A stretch of DNA of 64,000 bases from Ancalomicrobiaceae bacterium. GTDB taxonomy: Bacteria; Pseudomonadota; Alphaproteobacteria; Rhizobiales; Ancalomicrobiaceae. The translations under genes and the position numbers were made by a program. Positions 3,213-26,343 of the stretch are shown here, in pieces; position 1 is the stretch's first letter; every line of letters begins with the position of its first letter. The stretch covers positions 1 to 64,000 of the forward strand of contig JARLIT010000073.1 of assembly GCA_031291575.1 (NCBI GenBank), written 5' to 3'. The notes beneath the pieces were generated by a model. The model was given only the letters and a program-made list of their open reading frames with translations, had not been told where the DNA came from and did not search any database.

Positions 3213-5624
3213 ATGTCGCTGACGCCCCCTCCTGTCTTCGCCGTGATCACCCGCGATACCGCCCGGCTGACGCTCGCCGCTCCGCAAGGCCATGTCGCCC
3301 ATGTCTTCGTTCTCGAAGACGACATCATCCGCGTGATGGTGCTGCCCAGGGGGGCACTCAACCTGACGAAGACCTGGGCGATTGCCCCGGGGGCGGAGGA
3401 CGTGCCGACGAATGGCCGAGACCGCTTCGATCTGACCGGCTTCACCTGCCCCGCATTCGATCTTGCCGAGGCGGACGGACGGCTGACCGTCTCGACATCG
3501 CGGCTGCGGCTGACGGTGACGCTCGCGGGTCTCTACTGCCGCTGGGACAGTCTCACCCGCGGCAGCTGGCACACGATGGCCGAGGACCGGGCGACGCAGG
3601 CCTATAACTTCGGCTGGTGGGACGCGCGCATCTATCACTACCTGAAGCGCGAGCCGGACGAGATGTATTTCGGCCTCGGCGAGCGCGCCGGCCTCGCCAA
3701 CCGCGCCGGCCAGTCCTACCGCATGGTCAACCTCGATGCGATGGGCTATTCGGCGCGCACCACCGATCCCTTGTACAAGCACATCCCGTTCTACATGGTG
3801 TGGAAGACATCGGTGCAGGCGCCACTCGGGGTGTTCTACGATACGCTTGCCGACTGCACCTTCGACATGGGCCGCGAACTCGACAACTACCACGGCCACT
3901 ACCGTTCGTTCATCGCCGAGGCCGGCGATCTCGACTATTACATCATCGCAGGCGAGCGGCCGGCCGACATCACCAAGCGTTTCACCTGGCTGACCGGTCG
4001 TCCGGCCATGATGCCGAAATGGTCGCTCGGCTACTCCGGCTCGACCATGAGCTATACCGACGCGCCCGACGCCCAGGGCCGGATGCAGGAGTTTCTCGAC
4101 AAGTGCCGGGAGCACGACATCCCCTGCCAGTCGTTCCACCTGTCGTCCGGCTACACCTCGATCGGAGCAAAACGCTACGTCTTCAACTGGAACCGCGACA
4201 AGTTCCCGGACCCGAAGGCATTTGCTGAAAGCTATCTCGGCCACGGCGTCCGGCTCTGCGCCAACATCAAGCCCTGCCTCCTGAAGGATCATCCGCGCTT
4301 CGCCGAGGCCGAGCGCGAGGGCCTGCTGGTGGGAAACGAAGACGGCTCGCCGAACCTTGTGCAGTTCTGGGACGAGGCCGGCGCCTACCTCGACTTCACC
4401 AACCCGAAGACGTTTAAGTGGTGGAAGGACCGGGTGAAGGACGCGCTGCTCGACTACGGCATTGCCGCCACCTGGAACGACAACAACGAATTCGAGATCT
4501 GGAGCGATCGGGCGGAGATCGACTTCTTCGGCCAGCCGCGCAAAGCCAAGGACTTCAAGCCGCTACACACGCTGTTGATGATCCAGGCGTCCCAACAGGC
4601 GCAGCGCGAGCATGCCCCGACAAGCCGGCCGTTCCTGATCTCGCGCGCCGGCGCCACCGGCATGCAGCGCTATGTACAGACCTGGTCGGGCGACAATTAC
4701 ACCTCCTGGGAGACGCTCGAATTCAACGTCCGCATGGGCACCGAACTGGCGGTTTCCGGCGTGTCCAACACCGGCCACGACATCGGCGGCTTCGCCGGCC
4801 CAAAGCCGGAGCCGGAACTGTTCCTGAGGTGGGTGCAGTTCGGCATCTTCCTGCCGCGCTTTTCCATCCACTCGTGGAATGACGACGCCACCGCCAACGA
4901 ACCGTGGATGTATGCGGAGATCACGCCGGCGATAGCGCGGCTGATCAAGCTGCGCACCGCGCTGATCCCCTATTTCTACGATCTCCTCTGGTGGTCGCAC
5001 AGCGCCTACGAGCCGATGATCCGGCCGACCTACTATGACTTCCCGGATGATCCCCGCTCATTCGGGGAGAACACCGACATGATGGTCGGCGCCAACCTCC
5101 TCGTCGCGCCGGTGGTGACACGGGGGGCGCGCGAACGGCGCGTCTATCTGCCGGCGGGCGCCGGCTGGGTCGATTTCTGGACCGGCAAGCATTATGTCGG
5201 CGGGCAGGAAATCAGAGTCAACGCGCCTTGGGAGCAGCCGCCGGTGTTTGCCCGCGAGGGCTCGGTCCTTCCGATCAACACCGCGCCGGCGCATTTCAAC
5301 GATGCGTCGGACGAGCGCGGCTTCCTGGTCTATCCGCCAAAAGGTGAGGGATCCTTCATCGCCACCTGTCACGAGGACGACGGCGCGAGCGAAGCTTATC
5401 GCGACGGCGCGTTCGGCGAATGGCAACTCGCCGTGACGGCGACCGCCGAAACCATCACGATCGCGGTATCAAAGGCCGGTCAGCGTCCGCCGCTCGACCG
5501 CTTCGTCCGGCTCATCCTGCCGAAAACAGAGACGCGCACGATCGTTGTCGAGGGCGGGCGGGCGCGGGTGGGAGATCTACCCGAATTCGACGATCCGATT
5601 CTGGTGGAATTGCCGCCGGCGTAG
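3213..5624 (+). CDS. GH31 alpha-glycosidase (alpha-glucosidase or alpha-xylosidase)
   Basis: 803-residue glycoside hydrolase of family 31, a retaining alpha-glycosidase. Visible signatures are an N-terminal beta-sandwich with GLGERAG, the catalytic nucleophile in WNDNNEFE (Asp423) and the acid/base in WSGDNYTSW (Asp494), followed by C-terminal beta domains. No signal peptide is seen, so it probably acts on imported oligosaccharides in the cytoplasm. The ATG at 3213 is chosen over an in-frame extension because GAGG precedes it and the upstream residues are low complexity. Glucosidase versus xylosidase cannot be decided from motifs; the xylulokinase and GH3 neighbours make a xylose-containing substrate possible. 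The sulfoquinovosidase subfamily is unlikely because the nucleophile motif differs. Confidence 0.88.
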   Translation: MSLTPPPVFAVITRDTARLTLAAPQGHVAHVFVLEDDIIRVMVLPRGALNLTKTWAIAPGAEDVPTNGRDRFDLTGFTCPAFDLAEADGRLTVSTSRLRLTVTLAGLYCRWDSLTRGSWHTMAEDRATQAYNFGWWDARIYHYLKREPDEMYFGLGERAGLANRAGQSYRMVNLDAMGYSARTTDPLYKHIPFYMVWKTSVQAPLGVFYDTLADCTFDMGRELDNYHGHYRSFIAEAGDLDYYIIAGERPADITKRFTWLTGRPAMMPKWSLGYSGSTMSYTDAPDAQGRMQEFLDKCREHDIPCQSFHLSSGYTSIGAKRYVFNWNRDKFPDPKAFAESYLGHGVRLCANIKPCLLKDHPRFAEAEREGLLVGNEDGSPNLVQFWDEAGAYLDFTNPKTFKWWKDRVKDALLDYGIAATWNDNNEFEIWSDRAEIDFFGQPRKAKDFKPLHTLLMIQASQQAQREHAPTSRPFLISRAGATGMQRYVQTWSGDNYTSWETLEFNVRMGTELAVSGVSNTGHDIGGFAGPKPEPELFLRWVQFGIFLPRFSIHSWNDDATANEPWMYAEITPAIARLIKLRTALIPYFYDLLWWSHSAYEPMIRPTYYDFPDDPRSFGENTDMMVGANLLVAPVVTRGARERRVYLPAGAGWVDFWTGKHYVGGQEIRVNAPWEQPPVFAREGSVLPINTAPAHFNDASDERGFLVYPPKGEGSFIATCHEDDGASEAYRDGAFGEWQLAVTATAETITIAVSKAGQRPPLDRFVRLILPKTETRTIVVEGGRARVGDLPEFDDPILVELPPA

Positions 5625-6544: not shown

Positions 6545-6605
6545 CGTCGAGATCGGCGGGACAGGCACAATCTGGCGCGGTGAGGTGCCAGGCCAGCCAA
6601 GTTGT

Positions 6606-6629
6606 CGTCCCGGCGCAAGCCGGGATCCA
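6606..6629. repeat. REP-like palindrome between convergent genes
   Basis: Contains CCCGGC-GCAA-GCCGGG followed by ATCCA. Nearly the same palindrome occurs twice, in inverted orientation, at 26131-26246, so this is a dispersed repeat of the REP type. It lies in the short gap between two converging genes and could serve as a bidirectional terminator. Confidence 0.7.
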
Positions 6630-6669
6630 CTCGCCTATCATGGCGTCTGCTCGGCTGGAGCGGTCCGGC

Positions 6670-8628: not shown

Positions 8629-10151
8629 GGGACGGTCCTGGATTGAGCGGGTACGGTGGCCGAGATGACGTCCGCCGGGTTGGAGCCGGAGGGGAACGAG
8701 CCGGTGATCCGGCCATTGGCCATGACGAGAATGCGGTCGGAGAGCGCGAGCACCTCCTCGAGATCGGAGGTGACGAACAGGATCCCCAGGCCGGCCGCGG
8801 CGAGCCTGCGCATGGTGCGGAACACTTCCGCCTTGGCGCCGATGTCGATGCCGCGCGAGGGTTCGTCCATCAGGAGGATTCTCGGCTGCGTCATCAGCGC
8901 CTTGCCGATGACGACCTTCTGCTGGTTGCCGCCCGAGAGCGATGAGACGGGATGCTCGACGTTGCCGATCTTGATCGACAGGCTCTTGACGAAGGTAAGC
9001 GCGGCCTTCGCCTCCGCCGCCAGATTCAGATGGAAGCCCTTCGCCAGCTTCCAAAGCGACGACAGCGTGAGGTTCTCGCGGATGGCCATGATCTGCACGA
9101 GACCGTCGCGCTTGCGATCCTCCGGGATCAGCGCCAGCCCCATGTCGATGCGGCCCGCCGCCGTCCTGGTCTTGACCGGCTTGCCGGCGATGAACAGTTT
9201 GCCGGAGGCTTCCGGGTGCTGCGCCATGACGCATTCGAGAAACTCGGTGCGGCCCGCGCCCATCAGGCCGTAGAGGCCGACGATCTCCCCGGCTTTCACC
9301 GACAGCGACACGTGATCGACCGTGTAGCCGCCGCCGAGGCGGGGCAGGCAGACATTTTCGGAGCGGAACACCTCGTCGCCGAAGGTGACGGCTTCGCCGC
9401 GCGGGAATTCCTTCGAAGCGCTGCCGATCATGTGCTCGACGATCCAGGCGATATCGACGCCCTCCATCGAGCGCGTACCGGTGATCTGCCCGTCGCGCAG
9501 TACGGTGATGTAATCGCCGATGCGGATCAGCTCTTCCAGACGGTGGGAAATATAGACGATGCCGACGCCGTGCTTCTTCAAATCGCGGATGATGCGGAAG
9601 AGGACGTCGACTTCGGACGCCGACAGCGCTGAGGTCGGCTCGTCGAAGATCAGGATGCGGGCGTCTTCGGCCAAGGCTTTGGCGATCTCGACGATCTGCT
9701 GCTGGCCGATCCTCAGATTGCCGAGCGGCGCATCCGGCTCGATGTCCTGCTCGAGGCGCCGCATCAGGGCGCGGGCACCTTCGGCCTGCGCGCTGCGATC
9801 GATGTGGATGCCGGCATGCGCCTTCTCGCGGCCGATGTAGATGTTGTCGGCGACGGACAGGTTGGGAAACAGGTTCAGTTCCTGGAAGACGATGCCGATG
9901 CCGCGTCGGGCCGCATCCGCCTTGTCGGCGAAGGTGACCTCCTTGCCGTCGAGCATGATCGTGCCTTCGCTCAATTGCTCGACACCGGAGATGATCTTCA
10001 TCAGCGTCGACTTGCCGGCGCCGTTCTCGCCGACGAGGACGTTGACCGCTCCCATGCGCAAGTCGAAGTCGACGCCCTTCAGTGCCATGGTGCCGGGATA
10101 GAGCTTGACACCCCCCCTTATCGTCAGACCGATCGGATGGGTCTCTGTCAT
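8625..10151 (-). CDS. sugar ABC transporter ATP-binding protein, RbsA type
   Basis: 508-residue ATPase with two nucleotide-binding domains, as in RbsA/XylG. Domain 1 has Walker A GENGAGKST, the signature region LRIGQQQIVEIAKAL and Walker B ILIFDEPTSAL. Domain 2 has signature LSGGNQQKVVIGKAL and Walker B ILLMDEPSRGIDIG, and its Walker A region is degenerate (GLYGLMGAGRTEFLE), as usual for this family. It drives import of a monosaccharide. The gene overlaps both neighbours by ATGA (8625-8628 and 10148-10151), binding it into one translational unit with the DUF2291 lipoprotein and the permease. Confidence 0.94.
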   Translation of the reverse strand: MTETHPIGLTIRGGVKLYPGTMALKGVDFDLRMGAVNVLVGENGAGKSTLMKIISGVEQLSEGTIMLDGKEVTFADKADAARRGIGIVFQELNLFPNLSVADNIYIGREKAHAGIHIDRSAQAEGARALMRRLEQDIEPDAPLGNLRIGQQQIVEIAKALAEDARILIFDEPTSALSASEVDVLFRIIRDLKKHGVGIVYISHRLEELIRIGDYITVLRDGQITGTRSMEGVDIAWIVEHMIGSASKEFPRGEAVTFGDEVFRSENVCLPRLGGGYTVDHVSLSVKAGEIVGLYGLMGAGRTEFLECVMAQHPEASGKLFIAGKPVKTRTAAGRIDMGLALIPEDRKRDGLVQIMAIRENLTLSSLWKLAKGFHLNLAAEAKAALTFVKSLSIKIGNVEHPVSSLSGGNQQKVVIGKALMTQPRILLMDEPSRGIDIGAKAEVFRTMRRLAAAGLGILFVTSDLEEVLALSDRILVMANGRITGSFPSGSNPADVISATVPAQSRTVP

Positions 10152-10798
10152 GGCGCGATCTCGAGCGAGATGGGGACGAGGCTGAGCTTGTCGGTCGCGG
10201 AATGCACCTCCAAAGCGCCGATGAAACTGGCTGTCTTGCCAACGGGATCGCCGTCGGGACGCTTCAGGGCCTTCACCGCGGTATCGTTGAGGCCGCGGGC
10301 AAGTTTGGCAAATTCGATCTGATCGCGGAAATCGGTGAAATTGTAGAAGGGCGCGAAATCGCGCAACGCTGCCGATCCCAGCACCACCGGTCCGATCTGC
10401 ACGACCACGTCCGGCTGGCCGTCGCCATCGACGTCGATATCGATGTGTGCGGCACGCGACTTCAGATCTGCGGCGACGATCTTGCCGGCGCCCTTGACGG
10501 CAAAGCTCCAGGGGCTGCCCTCGCCGGGTCCGCGGTGGCCGTATTTCTGCCCGGCGGCATCGAGGTCGGCGGCGATCGCTTGCTTCAGGCTCGCGGCATC
10601 GACGGCCTTGGCCTGGATGAGCGGCACGAGCTGCGCCTCGTAGGTCTTGGCGATCCGCGCGGCATTGCGGCTATCATCGCCCGCCTCGCCGGCGGGAACC
10701 TGGGCGGTCGAGCCGTCGCCGCCAACCTTCACCAGCTTGCAGCCTGTCAGCGCAATCGCGAGCGCGAGAACTGCGGCACTTAAGACGATTGTCTTCAT
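10148..10798 (-). CDS. DUF2291 family lipoprotein in sugar ABC operon
   Basis: 216-residue predicted lipoprotein. A short signal sequence ends in the lipobox ALTGC with Cys20, so the mature protein should be membrane-anchored on the periplasmic side. The rest matches the DUF2291 pattern and has an Asp-rich stretch (DIDVDGDGQPDVVVQIG) that could bind a divalent ion. The ATG at 10798 is chosen because the signal peptide begins there; the frame is open further upstream, through repeat sequence. Its stop overlaps the ATPase start as ATGA, so it is made stoichiometrically with the transporter. Function is unknown; a role as an accessory of the importer is inferred from position only. Confidence 0.85.
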   Translation of the reverse strand: MKTIVLSAAVLALAIALTGCKLVKVGGDGSTAQVPAGEAGDDSRNAARIAKTYEAQLVPLIQAKAVDAASLKQAIAADLDAAGQKYGHRGPGEGSPWSFAVKGAGKIVAADLKSRAAHIDIDVDGDGQPDVVVQIGPVVLGSAALRDFAPFYNFTDFRDQIEFAKLARGLNDTAVKALKRPDGDPVGKTASFIGALEVHSATDKLSLVPISLEIAP

Positions 10799-10841
10799 GG
10801 GGCGTCCCGAGCGTTCAGCCAGTCCACTTGGCGTGGCTCTA

Positions 10842-10912
10842 GTGGTCCGATTCCGACATTTGCATCCCACTTGCCGCGCGCTCATACGCAAATGTCGGAA
10901 TCGCAGGACCAC
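10842..10912 (+). repeat. 71-bp palindromic element, copy A
   Basis: Starts GTGGTCC and ends GGACCAC, with inner arms GACATTTG and CAAATGTC enclosing the core CCCACTTGCCGCGCG. It is the same length as the element at 10932-11002 and shares its core and arm layout, in opposite orientation. The stem bases that differ between copies change in pairs. It lies between the binding-protein gene and the DUF2291 gene. Confidence 0.8.
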
Positions 10913-10931
10913 CAGCAATACATTGATTCTA

Positions 10932-11002
10932 GTGGAGCTTTGAATTTGACATTTGAGTTTGATCGCGCGGCAAGTGGGACTCAAATGTCAAATTCGCTCC
11001 AC
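10932..11002 (-). repeat. 71-bp palindromic element, copy B (inverted)
   Basis: Read on the minus strand it starts GTGGAGCGA and ends GCTCCAC, with arms GACATTTGAG and CTCAAATGTC around the same CCCACTTGCCGCGCG core as copy A. The two copies are separated by 19 bp and each is preceded on the plus strand by CTA. See copy A for the paired stem differences. Confidence 0.8.
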
Positions 11003-11088
11003 TCGTGTGGCACCCTCCAGGCACGGCTCCCCGGCAGCGGATGCGGCCGATGTGGCGTCCGAGCGGTTGCGTCCGGCTGGTGGAAAGC

Positions 11089-11125: not shown

Positions 11126-12373
<1,248 letters not shown>

Positions 12374-26012: not shown

Positions 26013-26343
26013 TTTCCGCCGGCCGCCGTTCGGGCCCAATTTACGCCTTCCTCGTCAGTGCGAGCGAAGCGAAGCAATCCAGACTACTTGTGCGACGGCC
26101 CTTCCGCCTGTCCCATGGTCCCGTGACGGTGTCCCGGCGAAAGCCGGGATCCAATGGCGATGCAACGGGCAGGCAGGCGCGGCAGGACCAGCCGTCTTGC
26201 CAGGCGGAGAGGGCAATGGATCCCGGCTTTCGCCGGGATGACACCAGTCGAGGCGAGAGCGGTCAACTATCGAGGGCGCTGGCATTACCGGTATTCTGGA
26301 GTGCCTCGCCCACAATGACGGCAGCGTTATTCTCTACTCGACA
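26013..26343. repeat. composite repeat region between convergent LacI and putA genes
   Basis: No gene is seen. The region holds a CAGTGCGAGCGAAGCGAAGC motif (about 26056-26075), a repeat type common in many bacterial genomes. It also holds an inverted pair of the CCCGGCGAAAGCCGGGATCC palindrome, at 26133-26152 and, on the other strand, ending near 26218. A related palindrome is at 6606-6629. The pair could fold into a large hairpin and terminate both converging transcripts. Confidence 0.7.

Follow-up and report, generated by a model that had tools for sequence, protein, structure and literature searches.

The paired palindromes at positions 10839-11005 of the window (the whole stretch of 64,000 nucleotides analysed here) probably represent a copy of a MITE-like element that is dispersed, non-coding and bimodular, is mobilized in trans by a transposase of the IS630 kind and inserts at the TA within CTAG. 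The two 71-bp palindromes are present with the arms given in the initial annotation, which took them for a pair of copies. Their positions and lengths stand, but they are not independent: A and B are two diverged modules, arranged head-to-head in a single unit that recurs about 40 times in the genome. The suggestion that they are mobile palindromes moved in trans is borne out by the many copies, the empty sites and an exact CTAG target. More fully, the case for mobility rests on copy number, fixed length, exact CTAG or NTAN borders, empty orthologous sites and tandem units with a common CTAG.

The unit is laid out as CTA-A-spacer-CTA-B-TAG and is about 168 bp long (167 bases in the window, Table 1), with a family consensus that runs from CTAG to CTAG over 168-169 bp. 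It has no genes of its own, and its outer ends, GTGGNNCGANTNNGACATTTG, are inverted at both unit ends as terminal inverted repeats. A and B are 76% complementary to one another over 75 bp, and the perfect stretch shared by the inner arms is 16 bp in A and 17 bp in B. Short or partial forms are few. Module A stands by itself at two loci (L066 and L068), a hairpin form of about 72 bp that combines an outer A arm with an outer B arm is found at L016 in the same genome and at L306, and outer-arm pairs lie 48 bases apart in a short form in genomes G212 and G265.

Table 1. Features of the bimodular unit and its neighbouring genes (window positions).
Feature	Position	Strand	Description and evidence
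Whole mobile unit, CTAG-A-spacer-B-CTCG	10839-11005	.	Alignment of about 40 same-genome copies; no conservation outside CTAG in 162 copies
Left terminal CTAG (TA, putative target duplication)	10839-10842	.	Copy alignment, empty sites
Module A palindrome	10842-10912	+	71 bp, GTGGTCC...GGACCAC; outer arm 10842-10863, loop, inner arm 10888-10912 with 3-5 base bulge; covariation
15-base core CCCACTTGCCGCGCG in A loop	10866-10880	+	Exact repeat in B loop only in window copy
Internal CCAG, decayed CTAG, A inner end	10912-10915	.	Sequence, copy alignment
Inter-module spacer, family pattern roughly TAGCAANNNNNTTGATTCTA	10913-10931	.	Copy alignment; conserved in other genera
Internal CTAG, B inner end	10929-10932	.	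Sequence, copy alignment
Module B palindrome	10932-11002	-	71 bp, GTGGAGC...GCTCCAC; inner arm 10932-10958 with bulge, loop, outer arm 10979-11002; covariation
Second occurrence of CCCACTTGCCGCGCG, in B loop	10964-10978	-	
Right terminal CTCG, decayed CTAG	11002-11005	.	Sequence, boundary comparison
Downstream gene, DUF2291 predicted periplasmic lipoprotein	10148-10799	-	
Upstream gene, periplasmic sugar-binding protein (Peripla_BP_4)	11126-12094	-	

Searching with the whole region returned the roughly 40 places in the genome, and as most of these matches cover both modules, the repeated unit is A plus spacer plus B. Most copies are 84-91% identical to the window copy over 162-169 bp, as expected of a MITE, which is dispersed in many non-coding copies of constant length. 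Both congeneric genomes that were searched have the unit, one of them (G001) as just one weak copy, and it is also encoded in a few genomes of other families. Named Hyphomicrobiales with the unit are Chelatococcus, Pleomorphomonas, Rhodomicrobium, Stappia and Pseudaminobacter; MAGs of Ancalomicrobiaceae and Afifellaceae bear it as well, and a few matches fall in MAGs labelled outside Hyphomicrobiales. The Ancalomicrobiaceae MAG appears to be the congeneric genome G002, whose copies in L082 and L105 agree with it in spacing and scores. Across 397 Hyphomicrobiales genomes the distribution is patchy, with the end pattern in 37 and no match to a reversed-pattern control. Copies of the same plan, at 71-75% identity, are carried on plasmids of Ochrobactrum, Martelella and Rhizobium, and an Agrobacterium plasmid matches in part; Sinorhizobium plasmids gave no match to the unit at 1e-5. 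A second kind of dispersed palindrome is present in the window at 6603-6639 and 26207-26243, a short inverted repeat pair of the GATCCCGGCTT...AAGCCGGGATC type that is 84% complementary. Two further repeats flank individual copies: one of about 100 bp to the left of L036 (G000:C293:17786-17949), with some 10 further places in the genome, and an abundant one of about 95 bp (...CTACAGCGTCGTGC...) to the right of copies in G043 of genus g36 (query 1557-1650 and 3267-3370).

The boundaries of the unit are sharp. A terminal CTAG is found at the left end in 113 of 162 copies and at the right end in 124, with no base conservation outside it. Empty sites have one CTAG or NTAN where occupied sites have two, in keeping with a target-site duplication, though duplication of TA and of CTAG are indistinguishable because CTAG is palindromic; the variable outermost base at some empty and occupied sites favours TA. 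In the congeneric genome G002 the unit is absent from the window locus, where the alignment is messy in intergenic DNA as it is at L052 and L253, and a second empty locus in G002 reads exactly CCGCAG-CTAG-AGCCGAGG. Similarly, loci occupied in G043 are empty in relatives from genus g36, the junction being CTAG, TTAG, TTAA or CTAC and often or usually the stop codon of the gene ending there. Tandem units have one CTAG in common, as expected if one unit inserts at the end of another.

The terminal TAG or CTA forms the stop codon of a neighbouring frame in 36 of 139 copies. In some of these the frame could have been shortened by the insertion. In several cases the empty sites already have the stop codon, which must have come first. 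An annotated Agrobacterium gene of the RraA family has its stop codon within the terminal CTAG. The copy at L057 sits close to a reading frame's 3' end, and given a consensus of 168 bp, a multiple of three, in-frame insertion is conceivable.

The common core reported for the two palindromes is present, 15 bases long and in both loops, but it does not mark the family. Only one of the 183 aligned copies, that in the window, has more than 9 bases common to its A and B loops, and the usual B loop in this genome differs from the one in the window copy. An exact search of the 5.58-Mb genome placed the core at 10 sites, 9 of them in an A module. The core is thus a local patch, probably copied from the A loop into B. 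The copied patch may also be why the window copy is among the 10 of 183 that prefer a long-range fold between A and B.

The palindromes of both modules are kept. In the 183-copy alignment, stem positions pair in 94.7% of cells in A and 94.8% in B as against 23-40% in slid controls. Cells with changes on both sides of a pair number 208 in the A stems (shuffles: mean 60, maximum 72) and 50 in the B stems (shuffles: 7, maximum 15), although many rows come from few genomes and the cells are accordingly not independent events. These values come from explicit pair counting, RNAalifold having given a poor, partial structure on the same alignment. The paired stem changes first seen between A and B therefore hold in the family, yet the A-versus-B comparison itself is no test of compensation, because both modules are old and fixed and almost every copy has the two together. 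The initial annotation was staked on other genomic copies and on covariation, and both were found.

It had also held that paired change means the folded form is under selection, which the alignment does not support. Since RNA pairing in a fixed orientation tolerates G.U more, G.U-type one-sided changes should outnumber A.C-type ones. On the element's strand there were 125 of the former (71 and 54) and 134 of the latter (78 and 56), a comparison that is weak alone because the orientation of copies relative to genes varies. With A.C-type changes as frequent as G.U-type, the covariation is no proof of a selected fold, and it fits a DNA palindrome or template-switch correction of the arms; copying from one arm to the other by template switching could yield paired changes even where no selection acts. 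That the twin hairpins are a conserved mRNA element between the binding-protein and lipoprotein genes, acting in stability, attenuation or termination, is very improbable. The minus-strand fold of the window copy is very stable (-91.7 kcal/mol; z = -12.2 relative to 200 dinucleotide shuffles, none of which was as stable), the stem covariation is real, and the unit sits between two genes on the same strand. However, covarying stems, while typical of structured RNAs, are equally expected of a DNA palindrome, and the insertion is missing from the corresponding intergenic region in G002, which speaks against the proposed tuning of expression in this operon. Copies show no preference for the 5' or the 3' end of a gene: among 139 copies there were 36 convergent, 67 tandem and 29 divergent contexts, and 10 were inside reading frames. 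In Rfam no family reached the gathering score for the element; the best matches below threshold, to miRNA and archaeal sRNA models unrelated to it, were discounted as the kind that a long palindrome gives by chance. Taken together, the G.U and A.C counts and the gene context give no sign of a regulatory RNA role.

An IS630-type transposase is the most likely candidate for the enzyme that moves the unit, given the CTAG target, the resemblance of the ends and the published preference of IS630. IS630 prefers the TA in 5'-CTAG-3' (Tenzen and Ohtsubo 1991, as cited in PMC2170065), and insertion at TA, preferably in CTAG, as is usual for IS630/Tc1-mariner elements, is what is seen for the unit. Genome G064 carries 11 copies of a 1146-bp IS630-type element (DDE_3) that begins GTGCACTGAC and is flanked by CTAG in all 10 aligned copies. 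The outer ends of the unit resemble the ends of this element (summed P = 0.003 against shuffles, a post hoc test), whereas the inner ends do not (P = 0.19); shuffles were used as background because CTAG sites are contaminated by decayed copies. DDE_3 genes are encoded in some hosts only, and none was found in eight element-bearing genomes (G002, G054, G042, G063, G212, G237, G087 and G295), where the partner may belong to another family or may have been lost. No autonomous element with the ends of the unit was found in the examined loci or among the matches listed from 397 genomes. Two candidates for one were rejected: a long end pair at L100 turned out to be another MITE inside a copy, and an interrupted copy at L208 held an IS5-type insertion.

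The main rival is an IS5-family (IS427/IS711-like) transposase acting on the same MITE-like element, inserting at YTAR/CTAG and duplicating TA. As IS5/IS427-type elements also use CTAG, the target alone does not decide the transposase family. In the same group of hosts, IS5-type elements occupy CTAG sites (L208 and G308), one of them exactly at the CTAG of a copy, and DUF4096 transposases are encoded in 14 of 18 element-bearing genomes. In Brucella, IS711 duplicates TA at YTAR, and the Bru-RS palindromes are reported hot spots for it (PMC2266754). Nevertheless, the ends of the IS5-type elements examined (GGGCGTAGACTC and GGAAGTGTGGAC) resemble the outer ends of the unit no better, or little better, than background, and DUF4096 is absent from the element-bearing genomes G000, G042, G237 and G087, making an IS5-type mover unlikely. 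Still less likely is a REP/BIME system moved by a RAYT or an IS200/IS605-type HUH transposase, with the hairpins acting as single-stranded DNA. Head-to-head palindromes, tandem arrays and a fixed tetranucleotide at the ends look BIME-like, and the genome does have one Y1 transposase gene. However, this sole Y1 gene looks IS200-like, its 3.4-kb locus contains no repeat module, and no RAYT was found in the genome, so that the search for a RAYT-like transposase suggested at the outset ended without one. A RAYT gene flanked by the repeat and a palindrome of 20-40 bp with a GTAG tag at one end, both typical of REPs, are missing here, the modules being 71 bp with CTAG at both ends (compare PMC3733652). 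The single CTAG at empty sites against two at occupied sites also argues for duplication, with a fixed CTAG target without duplication formally possible. Moreover, no Y1 gene was found in G001, G002, G043, G054 and G042; four genomes with several to many copies are without one, by which a Y1 mover is largely refuted.

Under the favoured scenario, the mover would be a DDE transposase supplied in trans that most likely belongs to the IS630 (Tc1/mariner) group. It would recognise the two outer arms (GTGGNNCGANTNNGACATTTG), excise the whole A plus B unit and insert it at the TA within CTAG, with duplication of the TA. As a TAG stop codon is often part of the CTAG, the upstream frame could stay intact after insertion, which would favour accumulation of the element. 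The palindromes are best understood as belonging to transposable DNA, as arms that may be bound by the transposase or as a foldback or cruciform; their symmetry may be maintained because the ends are used, because template switching copies one arm into another, or for both reasons. It is improbable that the unit represents a class of foldback transposon of its own, with the pair of DNA hairpins as substrate and the outer arms as ends; in that case the conserved 3-5-base bulge of the inner arms would block the inner CTAGs, and the CTAG target would spare stop codons.

Copies of the unit are themselves targets. Three elements have each gone into a copy precisely at a CTAG: an IS630-type element (G064, L380), an IS5-type element (L208) and an inverted-repeat element (L100). 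The IS5-family-like element (L208:4181-5045) has two transposase frames and ends GAAGTGTGGAC, and lies exactly at the CTAG of module A. The one in L100 (1225-1492) is a second inverted-repeat element, about 255 bp long with ends GGGTCAGGACCTATTAAATT and no gene noticed, and lies at the internal CTAG of its copy.

Among known systems, RUP of Streptococcus pneumoniae, an IS630-type MITE, is small, non-coding and mostly intergenic, with inverted-repeat ends and TA borders, and is moved in trans. The unit is like such MITEs in being small, non-coding and mostly intergenic, with inverted-repeat ends, TA at both borders and probable movement in trans, and differs from them in consisting of two complete head-to-head palindromic modules over 168 bp and in that no autonomous IS with matching ends was identified. 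RIME1 and RIME2 of Rhizobium and Sinorhizobium consist of a pair of palindromes that together span about 100 bp; compared by description only, they are like the unit in their paired palindromes and come from the same bacterial order. Bru-RS1 and Bru-RS2 of Brucella (103-106 bp) are likewise palindromic repeats from this order, and as with Bru-RS and IS711, TA-duplicating IS elements (IS630- and IS5-type, and also another MITE) jump into copies of the unit; by description only, their length differs from that of the unit. REP/BIME repeats resemble it in paired inverted palindromes, tandem arrays and high copy number, while those with a RAYT are set apart by its larger modules, CTAG at both ends, lack of a GTAG tag, lack of restriction to 3' ends and the absence of a detected RAYT. 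No earlier description of the element was found in the open-access literature, searched with stem sequences included as text and with most subscription papers outside its scope. The element belongs to a widespread, bimodular, MITE-like family that, judged against the descriptions of Bru-RS and RIME, is new within a known kind.

Recognition of this family accounts for a conspicuous repeat of Hyphomicrobiales that would otherwise be annotated locus by locus as an RNA structure or regulatory element, and it provides a clear case in which stem covariation is not evidence of a functional RNA. As CTAG is able to serve as a TAG stop codon, the target may allow a mobile element to settle at the ends of genes while leaving the reading frame unbroken, a proposal that is directly testable.
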